Source: Bolinopsis microptera
Taxonomy: Eukaryota > Ctenophora > Tentaculata > Lobata > Bolinopsidae
Direction: 5' to 3'
Assembly (NCBI RefSeq): GCF_026151205.1
Contig: NC_087078.1
Location: 3,737,675-3,801,674 of the forward strand
Length of the DNA: 64,000 nt
Shown here: positions 4,301 to 26,405 of the stretch, piece after piece
How the letters are laid out: every line of letters starts with the position of its first letter
How positions within the stretch are numbered: the stretch's first letter is position 1
The notes under the pieces: generated by a model
The model's database searches: none
What the model was told of the DNA's origin: nothing
Seen by the model: only the letters and a program-made list of their open reading frames with translations
Position numbers and translations under genes: made by a program

Positions 4301-6813
4301 TACTAAGTGATAACTAGGTGGTAACTAGGTGGTTACTAAGTGATAACTAGGTGGTTACTAAGTGATAACTAGGTGGTTACTAAGTGATAACTAGGTGGTA
4401 ACTAAGTGGTAACTACCAGTGGAAATCTAGTCAATTCAAATATCTGCTTGCTTGGTACTCATGGTCGATACAATCACAGCCCAACCAACTATACTTGATC
4501 AGACCGATTCACCTACATGTGCATACGCCATCTGGGAGCCGTCAGTTGAGCTTGCTCTCTGACTCGTGGGTTGAAAACATCGTGTACAATACTTCGTGAG
4601 TAGTACAGTACTTCACAACGATAACCCGCCTCCCCAACCAAATCTCTTAAATTAATAACATTACACACAGTATGCACACTCACAAATATGGCAGTGAGTA
4701 TCCCAGCTGCATATAATGCAGTGTACTAATAGCAGCAGATATGAGATAACAACACGATTGCTTACTGATAGGCGTGCAAGAAATTCCTGAGCTGAATAGG
4801 GCCGGTAGCTCAATTGGTAGAGCACCAGGCATGTAACTCGGAGGTTGGCGGATCATACCCGCCCCGGCACTATGCCGGCCCATGATTTTCCGAATCGCTT
4901 ACCAGTGGAAATCTAGTCAATTCAAATATCTGCTTGCTTGGTACTCATGGTCGATACAATCACAGCCCAACCAACTATACTTGATCAGACCGATTCACCT
5001 ACATGTGCATACGCCATCTGGGAGCCGTCAGTTGAGCTTGCTCTCTGACTCGTGGGTTGAAAACATCGTGTACAATACTTCGTGAGTAGTACAGTACTTC
5101 ACAACGATAACCCGCCTCCCCAACCAAATCTCTTAAATTAATAACATTACACACAGTATGCACACTCACAAATATGGCAGTGAGTATCCCAGCTGCATAT
5201 AATGCAGTGTACTAATAGCAGCAGATATGAGATAACAACACGATTGCTTACTGATAGGCGTGCAAGAAATTCCTGAGCTGAATAGGGCCGGTAGCTCAAT
5301 TGGTAGAGCACCAGGCATGTAACTCGGAGGTTGGCGGATCATACCCGCCCCGGCACTATGCCGGCCCATGATTTTCCGAATCGCTTACCAGTGGAAATCT
5401 AGTCAATTCAAATATCTGCTTGCTTGGTACTCATGGTCGATACAATCACAGCCCAACCAACTATACTTGATCAGACCGATTCACCTACATGTGCATACGC
5501 CATCTGGGAGCCGTCAGTTGAGCTTGCTCTCTGACTCGTGGGTTGAAAACATCGTGTACAATACTTCGTGAGTAGTACAGTACTTCACAACGATAACCCG
5601 CCTCCCCAACCAAATCTCTTAAATTAATAACATTACACACAGTATGCACACTCACAAATATGGCAGTGAGTATCCCAGCTGCATATAATGCAGTGTACTA
5701 ATAGCAGCAGATATGAGATAACAACACGATTGCTTACTGATAGGCGTGCAAGAAATTCCTGAGCTGAATAGGGCCGGTAGCTCAATTGGTAGAGCACCAG
5801 GCATGTAACTCGGAGGTTGGCGGATCATACCCGCCCCGGCACTATGCCGGCCCATGATTTTCCGAATCGCTTACCAGTGGAAATCTAGTCAATTCAAATA
5901 TCTGCTTGCTTGGTACTCATGGTCGATACAATCACAGCCCAACCAACTATACTTGATCAGACCGATTCACCTACATGTGCATACGCCATCTGGGAGCCGT
6001 CAGTTGAGCTTGCTCTCTGACTCGTGGGTTGAAAACATCGTGTACAATACTTCGTGAGTAGTACAGTACTTCACAACGATAACCCGCCTCCCCAACCAAA
6101 TCTCTTAAGTGGTAACTAGGTGGTGTTGTAGTAAGAGAGTCAGGAAACAATGTCTAGGCTTCTCTGTAGGTAATAATTCCAAATAGTTGATGGTTCTAAG
6201 TCCACATAGTCACACTGGGATAATAAAATAAATTAACGTTAAGAAAGTTATTTTACGTACGCGATTTCATCTTTTGGGTCTGCATACTTTTTAATTATCG
6301 TTATTTTAGGTTTAGGTGATATGAAGTTGTCGTAATTCCCTCTCCATACGTCTACTGTACTCGATCTTTTGGGCTGTGCTGCCTAAGAAAGGGACAATAT
6401 TGTGTTTCAGAATAAAATAAAACCAATTTTGTAATTGCTCATTCTATTCTGGATATTTTGATGATTACGAGATGCTTATTTTGTTAATTAATGATAATAT
6501 TCTTTATTCCCCAGTTTTATTCTGGGTTTCATAGTGTAATGAAGGTTTAAAAATGTTAACTGCGGACGAAATTAACATTAGAAGAATGTTGGCTACATCT
6601 TGGTTGCAGTTATCATATTGATAAGCTGTGAAAATGTACCTAATGTGATCAAAATTATCTAATATCTGGAAGTTCTGCTGGAAAGAAACAGAAAGCACCA
6701 ACCTGCTTGCCTCCGAGGTTTCTCAAAAGGAGGGCCAAATTGTCAGGATCATTGTTTCTAAAGGGGTTCTCGAACCACATCACAAATTCACATGCTATAT
6801 TTACATATACCGG
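1396..6813 (-). CDS. Multi-exon gene of unknown function with PP1-docking-like KQVTF motif (about 470 aa)
   Basis: Nine exons on the minus strand join with matching phases: 6813-6703, 6382-6261, 3414-3333, 3216-3155, 3046-2994, 2800-2498, 2360-2157, 1999-1821, 1692-1396 (stop). Every junction is GT-AG and the summed coding length stays in frame, which is strong support. The protein begins with a stretch around MWFENPFRNNDPDNLALL, has a Cys/His-containing segment (DKCEAHSNCNGDCG), a Thr-rich run, then KKQVTFSDN, which fits the RVxF consensus for protein phosphatase 1 docking, then an acidic/Lys region and a basic Pro-rich C-terminus. I recognise no domain. The first exon may start at ATG 6780 or be internal (TTTTTAG acceptor at 6814-6820 with an open frame), so the 5' end is uncertain. 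The 2.85-kb intron 3415-6260 holds the satellite and tRNA-like arrays. Confidence 0.75.
3557..3955. repeat. CTAACTAA-type short tandem repeat
   Basis: Nearly 400 bp built from TAAC/CTAA tetramers with higher-order units of 30-60 bp (for example TCTAACTAACTAACTTAATT) repeated several times. It lies in the large intron of the minus-strand gene, close to the acceptor of exon 3414-3333. Confidence 0.95.
4031..4414. repeat. GGTAACTA minisatellite, left part
   Basis: Variable 10-13-bp units based on GGTGGTAACTA and GGTGGTTACTAAGTGATAACTA run from about 4082 to 4414. A 40-bp leader at 4031 (AGAGTCAGGGAACAACGTCT) recurs in diverged form at 6134 beyond the tRNA-like array. The last few units of the minisatellite (GTGGTAACTAGGTGGT) resume at 6108, so the 486-bp array interrupts this minisatellite. 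Confidence 0.9.
4801..4869 (+). tRNA. tRNA-Thr(TGT)-like sequence, probably degenerate (unit 1)
   Basis: The 69-nt stretch has a good A box (TAGCTCAATTGG), a D arm GCTC...GAGC, an anticodon loop CATGTAA reading TGT, and a T arm with GGCGG/CCGCC pairing. Against it: position 33 is A instead of T, the anticodon stem has a mismatch, the T loop ATCATAC departs from TTCRA, and the acceptor pairs only GCCGG with CCGGC. It is probably a tRNA pseudogene or tRNA-derived element head. The outer GGGCCGG...CCGGCCC bases can also pair. Confidence 0.45.
5287..5355 (+). tRNA. tRNA-Thr(TGT)-like sequence, probably degenerate (unit 2)
   Basis: Same sequence as the copy at 4801, displaced by exactly 486 bp, with the same A33, the same anticodon-stem mismatch and the same weak B box. 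Confidence 0.45.
5773..5841 (+). tRNA. tRNA-Thr(TGT)-like sequence, probably degenerate (unit 3)
   Basis: Third copy of the same tRNA-like sequence. The fourth unit is truncated before this position. Confidence 0.45.
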
Positions 6814-21093: not shown

Positions 21094-23598
21094 ATATGGA
21101 CACGTTCATTTGAGTTTGAGGATATTGGTAAATATAAGTGACCCTATTAAAAGGCACAGTGTAGTTGACTTTGTCACACTATGAAATTACACAAACCCTT
21201 GATGGTTAGGATAATCGTCTCATCCTCTAGGCTAACTTTGTCACTTAACGATATCTTAATCAGCTGATAAGATATCGCTTAAATACGGCCGGCACGGAAA
21301 TGGTTACATTGTCACACTATAAACATGTGACGGAGTAAATATGGACCCCTTACTGCCGTTTTTGACCAAATTTTTGAGTGTCCAGTTGATTGGATGGGTA
21401 CATATGACCATTACCTACATATTTGACGAGTTTTTTCGTTAGATGGTGCACTCAGGTTTACTCTGTCACACATTTAAGAAAACATGTGAAGAATGTTTAG
21501 GGCACCCTGATAAGCAATGCTGAGTAGTGTAGGTTTATTTGATGGCCTGGAAGTGCTAGGAATTGTTATTATATCATATAGTCGTAAGGAATTAAAACAC
21601 AGAAGGCACAAACAAGTTTACTTTGTCACATAATCTTGATGATATCTGAACATGTGTGAAATTGAACAAATAATGATATACCAGCTTAAACCCCTTATAT
21701 TACGTACTATGGATCAAACAAAACTGCTAGTACCACGCACCAGTCACATAAATCATTATCGGGTGGTAATATGTTAATAGTGTCACAATTAAACTACCGC
21801 AACATGGTCAAAAATAGGGTAATTTCGTCACAAAAAATTATTATAACTCTGTTAGCTCCTTGCTGGCAAAATAACTAGTTCATTGATGATAAAGTTACAT
21901 AGTATTCTAATAGAGGTATAGCTCTTCAAAATAGGGGCAAGACATGTTTACTTTGTCACATCAGTTATTATACGAGTTAGGTAATCGTCATCAGATTAAC
22001 AGATCTTTTTCGTAGTTTGGATCGATTAATATAGGCAATAAAGCATCATATGCCAATTTTAACACACTATCTTGATATTGTTGGGGCAGGGAAAGTTAAT
22101 TTTGTCACATTTTCAGCGTTTTTGACAAATTAATCTAAAATTGTTAAACTTGAGCTCTGATGTTCTGGACAATATTCGACCAATCGTTTCTGAAAGAATG
22201 CTGAATTCTTATAGAGTTATAGATCTTCAAAATAGAGGCAAGACATGTTTACTTTGTCACATCAGTTATTATAAGAGTTAGGTAATCGTCATCAGATTAA
22301 CAGATCTTTTTCGTAGTTTGGATCGATTAATATAGGCAATAAAGCATCCTATGCCAATTTTAACACACTATCTTGATATTGTTGGGGCAGGGAAAGTTAA
22401 TTTTGTCACATTTTCAGCGTCTTTGACAAATTAATCTAAAATTGTTAAACTTGAGCTCTGATGTTCTAGACAATATTCTACCAATCATTTCTGAAAGAAT
22501 GCTGAATTCTAATAGAGTTATAGATCTTCAAAATTGGGGCAAGACATGTTTACTTTGTCACATCAGTTATTATTAGAGTTAGGTAATCGTCATCAGATTA
22601 ACAGATCTTTTTCGTAGTTTGGATTGATTTATATAGGTAATAAGGCAGCCTATGCTAATTTTTACACACTATCTTGAAATTTTTGGGGCAGGAAAAGTTA
22701 ATTTTGTCACATTTTTGGTGACTTTAACAAATTTAATCTAAAATTGTTAAACTTGAGCTCTGATGTTCTGGACAATATTCTACCGATTTTTTTCTGAAAG
22801 AATGTTGAATTCTAATAGAGTCATAGAATATATAGATCTTCAAAATAGGGGCAAGACATGTTTACTTTGTCACATCAGTCATTATAAGAGTTATTATAAG
22901 AGACTATTTCATTCTATAATCATTGTTTTTAACCTATTTACGATTTCGTATCATTTTTTGTGACAATGTAAACATCAACTGATCTTAACTTGCATCAACT
23001 ACATTGTCATCATGTAAAGTTTTCCCGCCTTTCAAACCAAAATCGGATATAAATAATTCGCCCAAAATTTAAAATTCCATATATTGTGACAGAATTAACC
23101 TCATTTCCCAATAACCAAGTGCCTGTATTAGCTAACTATTCGAAACAACATATGTTAGGGCTATGATTGGTAGATCAACCATCAAATAATGAGTTAAAAG
23201 GTTTTTGAGGACACCTCACAGTAGAATAGAGGTTTGGTATTCTGAGTGTGACAAAGTTACCCAAATATTGCCTTGTAACCGTTTGATCCGTGCCCTTTAA
23301 CCAATGTTGTATCATAATTGTTAGATTGACCTAATCTACTATATTTTAGGCCAAGTAATTATAATTAGACAACTGCAGTTAACTAAGTCACACAAAATGT
23401 GACATTTGAACCATTATAGTGCCTAACAACAATAGATTTTCTTTCTGAGCAGTGCATATGGGAGTATGGGTTACGTGGCTAATGTTCAGAACTTCTGAAC
23501 GTGCTAAGTTAATAGATGTCAAAATTAAGCCACTATCGTTGAAAACGCTATCATTTTTGTTTACCAATATCCTCAAACTCAAATGAACGTGTCCATAT
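21094..23598. mobile_element. 2.5-kb TIR element with arrayed TTTGTCACA motifs
   Basis: Ends are 39-bp perfect inverted repeats (21094-21132 and 23560-23598; ATATGGACACGTTCATTTGA...). No ORF of useful length lies inside. The left two thirds hold about 14 TTTGTCACA-like motifs in one orientation at 60-160-bp intervals; the right third holds the motif mostly inverted (TGTGACAAAGT). The middle is a 3.2-copy tandem array of about 302 bp. It appears to be non-autonomous; the spaced motifs may be binding sites for a transposase or host factor. It ends only 52 bases before the ATG of the ankyrin gene. Confidence 0.85.
21895..22870. repeat. About 302-bp tandem repeat inside the 2.5-kb element
   Basis: The block CAAGACATGTTTACTTTGTC recurs near 21940, 22240, 22540 and 22852, each followed by the same 300 bases with small changes. 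Each unit contains two TTTGTCACA motifs about 150 bp apart. Confidence 0.9.
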
Positions 23599-23649
23599 AC
23601 ACAGCTGACAATCTTTTGGTTTATCTAGAAAGGGAAGTGGCCGAATAAA

Positions 23650-26405
23650 ATGACAGGACGCCTCCGGGCGTTTATGGGATTAGATCAGAAAGCCTCGAGC
23701 TCCAAGCAGCATCAGTCACCTAGCAACCAGCACCAGTTACCTAGCAATCAGCACCAGTTACCTAGCAACCAGCACCAGTTACCTAGCAACCAGCATCAGT
23801 TACCTAGCAATCCCCTACAAATAGAGATCAGTTCAGATAAACCTGACACACTACAAGTGCCTTGTGCAGACTCAGCGGGCGAGTCGGGAGAGGAAAGTGT
23901 AACTCCAACTTCTAGATCTGAACTGGACTTTAACGTTCCAGCTGTGACGCCCACTACTGGTGAGTATATTTCAATATCTGGTTAGTTTTAAGTGTAGTTT
24001 TATTCGCAGCTTATTTGGAATGTGAGGTGATAATTTGATTCGAACATTTTGAAGTTAAGCGAACTCTTATATCAGAAAAGAAACAGCTACGGAGAAAAGT
24101 AACAGCAAAGAACCTGGATGCACCAGAGAATGGCACACTGAAGAAAAGAGGCAGCAAAAGCAGACTCAGTCCTAGAGTTCCTCGCAAGGTCAGTTGTTAC
24201 AAAATAATAATTAATACATAATTTCATAATTAATTATCATTAGGATACCCAGCCACAGTGTGTGAAGCCTAATGTATGCACGTGGCAGAGTTACCAAATA
24301 GCTGCTGGGCATAATTGGCTACAATTAAAAGATAATTAAGAGATTAAGAGAAATGTTTACAGCTGCCATGCAGAATTTACGTCATATCAATCCTTTTTAA
24401 AATATTGCTTTCTCTTTGGTAGTGTTTTGGTAATGTTTAGAAACTCTCTTGCTACTCCAAGTCCCCTAAGATATCTGGTATAAAGGTTCTGCTAATTATA
24501 TATAAAATATATTTTTGTTTGCTTTAATTGATACTAAATAAAATTGTTGTTTTCTTGAAATTGTTGTTTTCTTGATACCGCTCCTCCCCGGGGTGTTGTA
24601 GGAGTAGAAGTAGGATTGCACATTCTGCCTGGCAGGAGAATGGAGATAACCGTGCTCAATCCATCCGTTAAGTTGTGAACTTAGCTCATTGGTATAAGTT
24701 ATAACCTTCAATAACTGTACATTAATATAAATAACTTGCTTTGTTTGTTTTCAGTTATACCAGTCTAACGTTTTCCGGAATAAATACATTTTCAGTCAAT
24801 AAATTTTCAACAAGCCTTCGTTTATAAATAATGACCGTTATACTTATAATTTTGGTTAAATTTACAATTTGCTGACGCTCTCAAGTCTACTCGTTACAAC
24901 CCGAAGTACTGTTATTTGTTGATATTATGGCGAGGACCTGAACAAGTGGTCAGAATCAGATAATTAAATTTAAATGTCTGTCTCAGAAGGCTTATATCGG
25001 GCACCCTTAGATCAAATGACTAAATATGGAAGACTATCGAGAATCAAGGTACATTTTGTTCACAAGTCATCACTACTTATTAGCAGCGACAAGGGACATT
25101 TATAGCCTGTCATAGAAGAAACCTTTGCAATGAGCAGAAGTACAATAAATACTTTGTATCAACATTCAACAAGTCCATTATTGATTATAAGCCATCAACA
25201 AGTATGTTAATGTTTCTAAAATAGGTGTATATTTCCACAGTAAACGAGTTGTCTGTAACAAACGCTAATAGAGATATTATAATACTTCAGGAGGCAGAGG
25301 ACGCAGAAGAAACACTCAGTGAAAGTTCAGAAGACGACGACTTTGACGATGAAGTAGGTCTATTTCCGATCATGTGATCAAATAATGGAGATCATGCTTA
25401 TTGCTTATCTGAAAATTTATTTTCACGAGATGTGTTTACTAGTAGTGCCCAACAACACAAATAAAATAAGATTCACTATTTGATCGTTCATTTCAGCAAA
25501 TAATCAAGGCTGCAATCCAAGCGCAGGACTACGAAGCATTAGAAGACTTTCTGAGTGTGGACGATGCTATCGTGAACGAGTTCACCTCTGAAGTTCGTAT
25601 ACGTGGGGGGGGGGGGGGGGGGTATACGGTATAATAGGGGACTTTATATTAATACGACCAATATTAGAACAATAATATGCTAAATATTACCTAAATAATA
25701 TGCTAAATATTACCTATAGAGTACGAGGAGTCCTAACTCTCCTCGCGTCCTAAGATGACGTTTCTCTTGTCTCATATATTCAAGAATACCTGGTCACTAT
25801 CTTACGCGACAGTTACAGCAAGCCAGCCGCCCTGGTCACTATCCCTGGTCACTATCTAACCCACACCTGTTCAGGGAAGAAGGTATCTACACGAGTGTGT
25901 AGTGTATGATGACCAGGACGCTTGTGATATAGTCATGGAAGCTGGGGGACTGATCAACTCTAGAGACCTACAGGGCTGGACAGCGCTACACTACGCAGCT
26001 GCCTTCGATCTTACAGAGATGACTCAGTACCTCCTGGACAGAGGAGCTGATCCGAGGAAGAAGTCTAAGGAAGGTTTGTTTTTAAAATGAGAGTCTCCAC
26101 TCACTGTTTATTTGTTTTAAAAATAAGAAGACAGAAATCTATTGTGATTTCAAATGAAAGATTTAGTTAATTGGACGGTACCTGATTGGTAGCACTCTGA
26201 ACTATAAGGTCCCTCACCCCCGTCAGGAGAAACCCCGGAGGACGTGGCAGATGACCCGGATATTATCCAGAAGCTGCAGGTAGCCAGAGCTAGACGGGGG
26301 CTCCGCTCCATCTCCACTGTCAGTACTAGCGAAATAGAGGCTGCTCAGGAGGAGTTTAAGCGGAGGACCGCCGAGAGACGGAAAACCAGTGTTCAAGCCA
26401 GCTAG
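23650..26405 (+). CDS. Ankyrin-repeat protein, complete (319 aa), PP1-regulatory-subunit-like
   Basis: Six exons join in phase: 23650-23959, 24076-24188, 25291-25353, 25497-25592, 25875-26073, 26227-26405 (TAG). Residues 1-103 are a low-complexity head with a PSNQHQL repeat; then a basic segment (KKQLRRKVTAK), an acidic segment (SESSEDDDFDDE), and about three ankyrin repeats (IIKAAIQAQDYEALEDFL, LHECVVYDDQDACDIVMEAG, DLQGWTALHYAAAFDLTEMT ... RGADPRKK), closing with EGETPEDVADD and a charged helix (AAQEEFKRRTAERRK). The arrangement resembles small PP1-regulatory ankyrin proteins (PPP1R27/MYPT head), but the RVxF equivalent (RKVTA) lacks the aromatic residue, so function is inferred. The donor after 25592 (GTTCGT) is weak and an 18-G run follows 12 bases later. 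Confidence 0.9.
23714..23813 (+). repeat. 21-bp coding repeat (PSNQHQL)
   Basis: About five copies of a 21-bp unit (CCTAGCAACCAGCACCAGTTA) in exon 1 of the ankyrin gene, in frame. Confidence 0.95.
26089..26115. mobile_element. Solo end fragment of the 60.7-kb TIR element family
   Basis: GAGAGTCTCCACTCACTGTT in the last ankyrin intron matches the terminus of the element at 60694-61611. The rest of the element is absent. Confidence 0.45.

Follow-up and report, generated by a model that had tools for sequence, protein, structure and literature searches.

A probable non-autonomous DNA transposon family of Bolinopsis microptera with an oriented array of motif sites through its interior

The defining feature of plant CACTA/Spm elements is a subterminal array of protein-binding motifs in direct and inverted orientation (PMC2613891). 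The motifs diverge between families and are bound by TnpA-like proteins that are themselves non-homologous (PMC2613891). Kolobok and KolobokP transposons have RR..YY termini and target site duplications (TSDs) of TTAA or of 3-5 bp (PMC9587614), whilst the TSDs of Sola2 are AT-rich, 4 bp long and of the form AWWT (PMC3627910). The Acropora CMITEs, from a cnidarian, are about 100 bp long, with a TTAA TSD and piggyBac CCYT ends (PMC2872659).

The element described here, family A, lies in a 64,000-nucleotide stretch of the Bolinopsis microptera genome (the window, C7:3737675-3801674; the genome examined comprises 264.65 Mb in 232 contigs). It is a non-coding sequence of 2,497 bp bounded by terminal inverted repeats (TIRs) at window 21098-23594, and is probably a non-autonomous DNA transposon of the cut-and-paste type, whose sites are presumably read by an element-encoded protein supplied in trans. 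The initial annotation had held that few described elements devote their interior to spaced sites. CACTA/Spm elements do carry subterminal arrays (PMC2613891), so this is true only in part; what is unusual is an array that runs through the whole interior and a motif that has been re-specified in concert.

Ends, target sites and genomic copies

The inverted ends of the window copy (21094-21141 and 23551-23598) match over 48 nt at 94% identity, the first 39 positions perfectly, and had been annotated as perfect TIRs of 39 bp. The 39 perfect bases are present, but the outer four are the TSD of this copy, the palindromic ATAT. Since these four bases vary among copies yet match on both sides, the perfect TIRs are 35 bp long and the element has the limits given above. 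The TIR starts with GGACACGTTCA (11 bp), giving GG..CC termini, and GGACACG termini are present in all copies. Amongst 36 end pairs read genome-wide, an exact 4-bp TSD was found in 32 and an extension to 5 bp in none. The exact TSDs are ATAT (22), ATAA (3), TTAT (2), GTAT (2), TTAA (2) and ACAT (1), a WTAW-like pattern in which a central TA is usual, and the flanking bases are duplicated in all 10 of the exact pairs other than ATAT. The interior is free of genes, as first described: no open reading frame (ORF) of more than 68 aa lies between the TIRs, except for a 78-aa frame that crosses the right end.

A genome-wide search with the 35-bp TIR, allowing up to one mismatch, found 289 forward and 287 reverse ends (576 together), and the reversed-pattern control gave no matches. 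Family A has about 290 copies. For most pairs among the matches listed, the end-to-end distance is 1.8-2.6 kb. Copies are mostly 92-98% identical over their aligned parts and vary in length partly through the number of 301-bp tandem units and also by deletion, the longer copies holding inserted DNA. TIRs with a TSD of fixed length, a high copy number and a lack of coding capacity are the features of a non-autonomous TIR DNA transposon; since the typical size is well beyond the limit of about 500 bp for a strict MITE, 'long non-autonomous element' is the better description. The suggestion in the initial annotation of a non-autonomous element amplified with its binding sites thus gains support from the TSDs, the copy number, the missing coding capacity, the orientation of the sites and the coherent difference in motif from one sister family to the next.

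A unique segmental inversion is rejected by the roughly 290 copies with TSDs. It is also extremely improbable that recombination has spread the element as a segmental or satellite-type repeat. Some copies do stand in head-to-tail tandem arrays (L028, at C1:12.31 Mb) and the flank CAATGTATAT recurs at several solo ends, but the flanks of copies are unrelated and the TSD is exact in 32 of the 36 pairs. In L028 (C1:12307788-12315480), the left 0.8 kb of the element and about 1.5 kb of other DNA are repeated twice and followed by a full copy, all of them with the flank TAGGGTATAA. The flank CAATGTATAT is common to at least six solo ends on C1, C2 and C3, which suggests that a truncated element end has been carried along by another repeat.

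Minisatellites are very abundant in the window as a whole (105 rows from TRF); at 4414-6108, for instance, 3.5 copies of a 486-bp unit match at 100%. An open frame with several QHQLPSN-type repeats (23629-23985) starts about 35 bp to the right of the element. Because this frame is a possible exon, the window copy may be located immediately upstream of a host gene.

The array and its counterparts in sister families

The sites of the window copy (Table 1) have the 15-bp consensus GTTWACTTTGTCACA, derived from the extended sites. At up to one mismatch, TTTGTCACA occurs 19 times in the element (14 on the + strand, 5 on the - strand), whereas 500 dinucleotide shuffles gave 1.5 on average and 7 at most; for exact copies the figures are 10 and 0.07. 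Part of the count stems from the 301-bp unit, repeated 3.3 times, but the excess remains when the tandem units are collapsed to one (14 sites, against 1.1). Shuffled sequence therefore does not give similar counts, and the initial impression of about 14 copies in one direction followed by the inverse motif in the right third is borne out: the full set consists of 14 + sites (21164 to 22874) and then 4 - sites (22959 to 23412), or 13 and then 4 if only TGTCAC is counted, the + site at 21818 having the core CGTCACA. Two extra sites, 21326 (-) and 23378 (+), create one inverted pair near each end. Most distances between neighbouring sites are 149-163 bp; a few are shorter.

Table 1. Positions of the ends, sites and tandem unit of the element in the window
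Feature	Position	Strand	Basis
TSD ATAT, left	21094..21097	.	4-bp TSD in 32/36 end pairs genome-wide
Left TIR, 35 bp, GGACACGTTCATTTGAGTTTGAGGATATTGGTAAA	21098..21132	+	Inverted-end comparison, genome-wide TIR search
Motif site GTTGACTTTGTCACA	21164..21178	+	Motif enumeration
Motif site GCTAACTTTGTCACT	21231..21245	+	Motif enumeration
Motif site GGTTACATTGTCACA, left arm of inverted pair	21302..21316	+	Motif enumeration
Inverted partner site ATTTACTCCGTCACA	21326..21340	-	A/F site comparison
Motif site GTTTACTCTGTCACA	21456..21470	+	Motif enumeration
Motif site GTTTACTTTGTCACA	21616..21630	+	Motif enumeration
Motif site GTTAATAGTGTCACA	21773..21787	+	Motif enumeration
Motif site GGTAATTTCGTCACA	21818..21832	+	Full site listing
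Tandem repeat of a 301-bp unit (3.3 copies here, the number varying between element copies), each unit with two motif sites 149/152 bp apart	21904..22893	+	
Motif site, tandem unit 1	21946..21960	+	Motif enumeration
Motif site, tandem unit 1	22095..22109	+	Motif enumeration
Motif site, tandem unit 2	22247..22261	+	Motif enumeration
Motif site, tandem unit 2	22396..22410	+	Motif enumeration
Motif site, tandem unit 3	22548..22562	+	Motif enumeration
Motif site, tandem unit 3	22697..22711	+	Motif enumeration
Motif site, partial unit 4	22860..22874	+	Motif enumeration
Inverted motif site GTTTACATTGTCACA	22959..22973	-	Motif enumeration
Inverted motif site GTTAATTCTGTCACA	23085..23099	-	Motif enumeration
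Inverted motif site GGTAACTTTGTCACA	23247..23261	-	Motif enumeration
Partner site GTTAACTAAGTCACA of right-end inverted pair	23378..23392	+	Full site listing
Inverted motif site GGTTCAAATGTCACA	23398..23412	-	Motif enumeration
Right TIR, 35 bp	23560..23594	-	Inverted-end comparison, genome-wide TIR search
TSD ATAT, right	23595..23598	.	Same 4-bp TSD analysis (32/36 pairs)

Relatives were sought through ends that start with GGACACGTTCA but diverge beyond it, and several further families were found. Families A, F, B and G have in common this 11-bp terminus, a 4-bp TSD and inward-pointing arrays, + sites prevailing on the left and - sites on the right, each of its own 15-bp motif: GTTWACTTTGTCACA in A, GTAAAYTTYGTCACA in F, GAKTCAAAAATCACA in B, and GACACAAAAATCACA and variants in G. 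The 3' part, TCACA, is constant in all four families, whilst the 5' half is family-specific. Family F, with 397 ends starting GGACACGTTCATTGAAGTTTGAGG, matches A at 74-88% identity over the greater part of its length. It follows the plan of A, with the + then - order, the inverted pair near each end and a site spacing of about 152 bp, and its sites are at homologous places. One locus (L072) combines an F-type TIR with an A-like body (91% to A) and, as expected, has A-type sites. B and G agree with A in the 4-bp TSD and the eleven terminal bases, and BLAST shows little further likeness; B is 1.6 kb long with 12 sites of GAKTCAAAAATCACA (+ spacings 151, 139, 188 and 112), and G (L077) is 3.4 kb long with sites about 150-160 bp, or multiples of this, apart.

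Family A and three copies of F (L064, L060 and L061) were aligned site by site in the single-copy arms, the sites being picked by the core GTCACA/T only. Motif column 3 has changed from T to A in 11/13, 12/13 and 11/13, respectively, of the A sites with T, against a T>A background of 5% outside sites and TIRs in the same alignments (binomial p of 4e-13, 3e-15 and 6e-13; the F copies are related, so that the replicate is the site and not the copy). Where columns 1-2 are GG in A, they are GT in F, and columns 2-4 are conserved in 12/30 cases, against 79% elsewhere (p 5e-6). Copies of A have 8-16 GKTWA and 0-1 GTAAA sites; five full copies of F have 14-17 GTAAA sites and no GKTWA. The 5' half of the dispersed sites has thus changed in concert between the two families. 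Position by position between A and F, the expected conservation of the whole motif above its surroundings was not found, and conservation of the TGTCACA core (87%) is slightly but not significantly above the background of 79%. The case for a function of the sites therefore rests on their coordinated change. Since GTTTAC, as in A, reads GTAAAC, as in F, on the opposite strand, the switch may have been the flipping of a half-site.

Candidate readers of the array

The same change at all sites of shared descent needs either homogenisation or a common reader. Homogenisation could readily act within the 301-bp tandem units, but not so at single-copy sites with diverged flanks. A common reader that differs between families would most simply be a protein of each family's own autonomous element. 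As judged from these alignments, the concerted change favours an element-encoded transposase or accessory DNA-binding protein as the putative reader, over a host platform or passive repeats.

The array could in principle be a passive by-product, in which a unit of about 150 bp with a chance motif was duplicated and then decayed, leaving sites that no protein reads. The 301-bp tandem repeat of varying copy number, the recurrence of the 150-bp spacing with repeated flanks in B and G, and motif positions no more conserved than their flanks between A and F are all in keeping with this, as is a 66-bp satellite on C5, at 5.2 and 5.3 Mb, that holds the same inverted pair. However, after decay the dispersed, single-copy 15-bp sites of an element should resemble one another no more than their flanks do; the passive reading is already strained by the common substitution at 11-12 of 13 sites, and the orientation plan with its inverted pairs recurs in F. 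It is accordingly regarded as unlikely. The C5 satellite belongs to two repeats (L053+L051 and L054+L052; C5:5.197-5.211 Mb and 5.312-5.327 Mb) that lie 115 kb apart, are about 95% identical over 9 kb and are built of 31-, 40-, 61-, 25- and 65/66-bp satellites. The 66-bp unit shares homology (about 80%) with positions 191-265 of A, where the inverted motif pair lies; the 25-bp unit contains CTGTCACAGTGACA.

The initial annotation had also proposed a platform for a host DNA-binding protein. This could be a transcription factor or a silencing protein, which the element exploits or which represses it. Spaced, clustered sites do resemble transcription factor arrays, and GTAAAC/GTTTAC resembles a forkhead half-site. 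A single host protein would, though, predict a single motif, whereas four families in one genome use four versions of the 5' half, which such a protein would have to ignore. Escape from a repressor, in turn, would scramble the sites rather than convert them coherently. A host platform is thus not favoured, and is considered very unlikely.

With an element-encoded reader, family A would move by means of a protein that a partner element supplies in trans, and the transposase or an accessory protein would bind the array sites, in the way that TnpA binds the subterminal repeats of Spm. Inward-pointing sites, with an inverted pair close to each end, could help to join the ends or to load protein along the element. 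The array would grow by tandem duplication of units of about 150 and 301 bp, a larger array providing more binding capacity and more competition for the shared protein. If the specificity of the protein then changed, copies with all sites matching the new specificity would spread, and the array would therefore change in concert. More tentatively, these families may belong to a lineage of DNA transposons in which a non-autonomous member is little more than a long array of inward-pointing bipartite sites (a variable 5' half and the constant TCACA), set about one nucleosome length apart. The entire array would be re-specified as the transposase or accessory protein changes, leaving a record of specificity evolution in at least four motif versions.

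An autonomous relative with the same TIR, suggested at the outset as a check, was not found: no transposase linked to these ends was seen among the enlarged copies of A, F and B that were sampled, with ORFs judged by eye and pairing covering the end pairs among the matches listed. Every sampled copy of 4-12 kb was enlarged by inserted DNA, namely non-LTR retrotransposons, an element with GIY-YIG plus reverse transcriptase, a Kolobok-like TIR element with TTAA-GGGGG, a TACAGTCAAATCCG TIR element and repeat-rich stretches. Family G (L077) has no ORF of more than 84 aa, and a search for TIRs followed by different sequence (negated patterns) gave mutated or rearranged ends only. A consensus motif absent from A, GTTAACTTTGTCACA, led to the two satellite-rich C5 repeats (L051-L054), in which neither TIR nor transposase was found, and a direct literature search for the terminus GGACACGTTCA gave nothing on transposons among the titles listed.

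Some of the loci seen in this search have features of their own. Nested in one element copy (L022, 2278-8067) is a 5.8-kb TIR transposon (GGGGGCAWACACC) flanked by TTAA, with an exonuclease-like ORF, which is Kolobok-like by its TSD and termini. About 0.9-8.5 kb from the left end of another copy (L011+L012, C2:12650677-12663771) lies a nested retroelement in partial tandem copies, with an N-terminal GIY-YIG-like region upstream of the reverse transcriptase in one ORF; by eye, it resembles permuted Penelope-like elements. On C6 (1622855-1642296; L055, L068-L070), six same-strand ends GGACACGTTCAGTGAAG form a cluster, and the loci read there hold a repeated ORF of 165-172 aa, by its look a host gene duplicated in tandem.

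Co-evolution of a transposase and its binding sites is usually inferred from a single TIR per element. Here there are 14-20 dispersed sites per element, and sister families with shared sites but coherently different letters form a natural replicate set. This set bears on how a protein shifts its specificity when dozens of targets must follow, and on whether the non-autonomous elements are ahead of such a shift or behind it. It would also be of use in identifying the missing transposase, for which a DNA-binding domain that reads TCACA and the variable half-site is predicted. Should Repbase already list the families as unclassified, their classification would lose its novelty, though the concerted motif switch would remain of value.

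Comparison with described transposons

Strict TTAA Kolobok, piggyBac and Tc1/mariner were considered and rejected: TTAA is seen in only 2/32 TSDs, the CCYT ends of piggyBac are not those of the element, and a 4-bp TSD is not the TA dinucleotide of Tc1/mariner. A Sola2 or Kolobok relative is possible. The 4-bp AT-rich TSD is like that of Sola2 (PMC3627910), with ATAT in both; 22/32 are ATAT here, but TTAT, GTAT, TTAA, ATAA and ACAT also occur, and the comparison with Sola2 covered the TSD. With Kolobok and KolobokP it shares GG..CC termini, which fit 5'-RR..YY-3', and a 4-bp TSD usually with a central TA, but TTAA is rare and there are no long terminal direct repeats. Like the Acropora CMITEs, family A is non-autonomous, can form tandem arrays and has a conserved internal region (PMC2872659); it differs from them in size, TSD and ends. 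Tetris and satellite-carrying Helentrons are likewise related to or carry tandem satellite-like repeats (PMC4079207, PMC7492417), whereas the array here is oriented, family-specific and present in both single-copy arms as well as in a tandem unit.

The closest likeness in plan is to deletion derivatives of CACTA/Spm (EnSpm), in which a short motif is repeated many times, direct and inverted, inside the TIRs, differs between families and is kept in non-autonomous copies (PMC2613891). The Spm array is bound by an element-encoded DNA-binding protein (PMC2613891); in the sampled copies here, no transposase or TnpA-like gene was found. Membership of CACTA/EnSpm is rejected, the termini being GGACACG and not CACTA/CACTR, and the TSD being 4 bp and not 3; the array also differs in filling the interior. 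Thus the kind is already known, that of TIR transposons with subterminal repeats, and what is new is an array that fills the element and its concerted re-specification between sister families.
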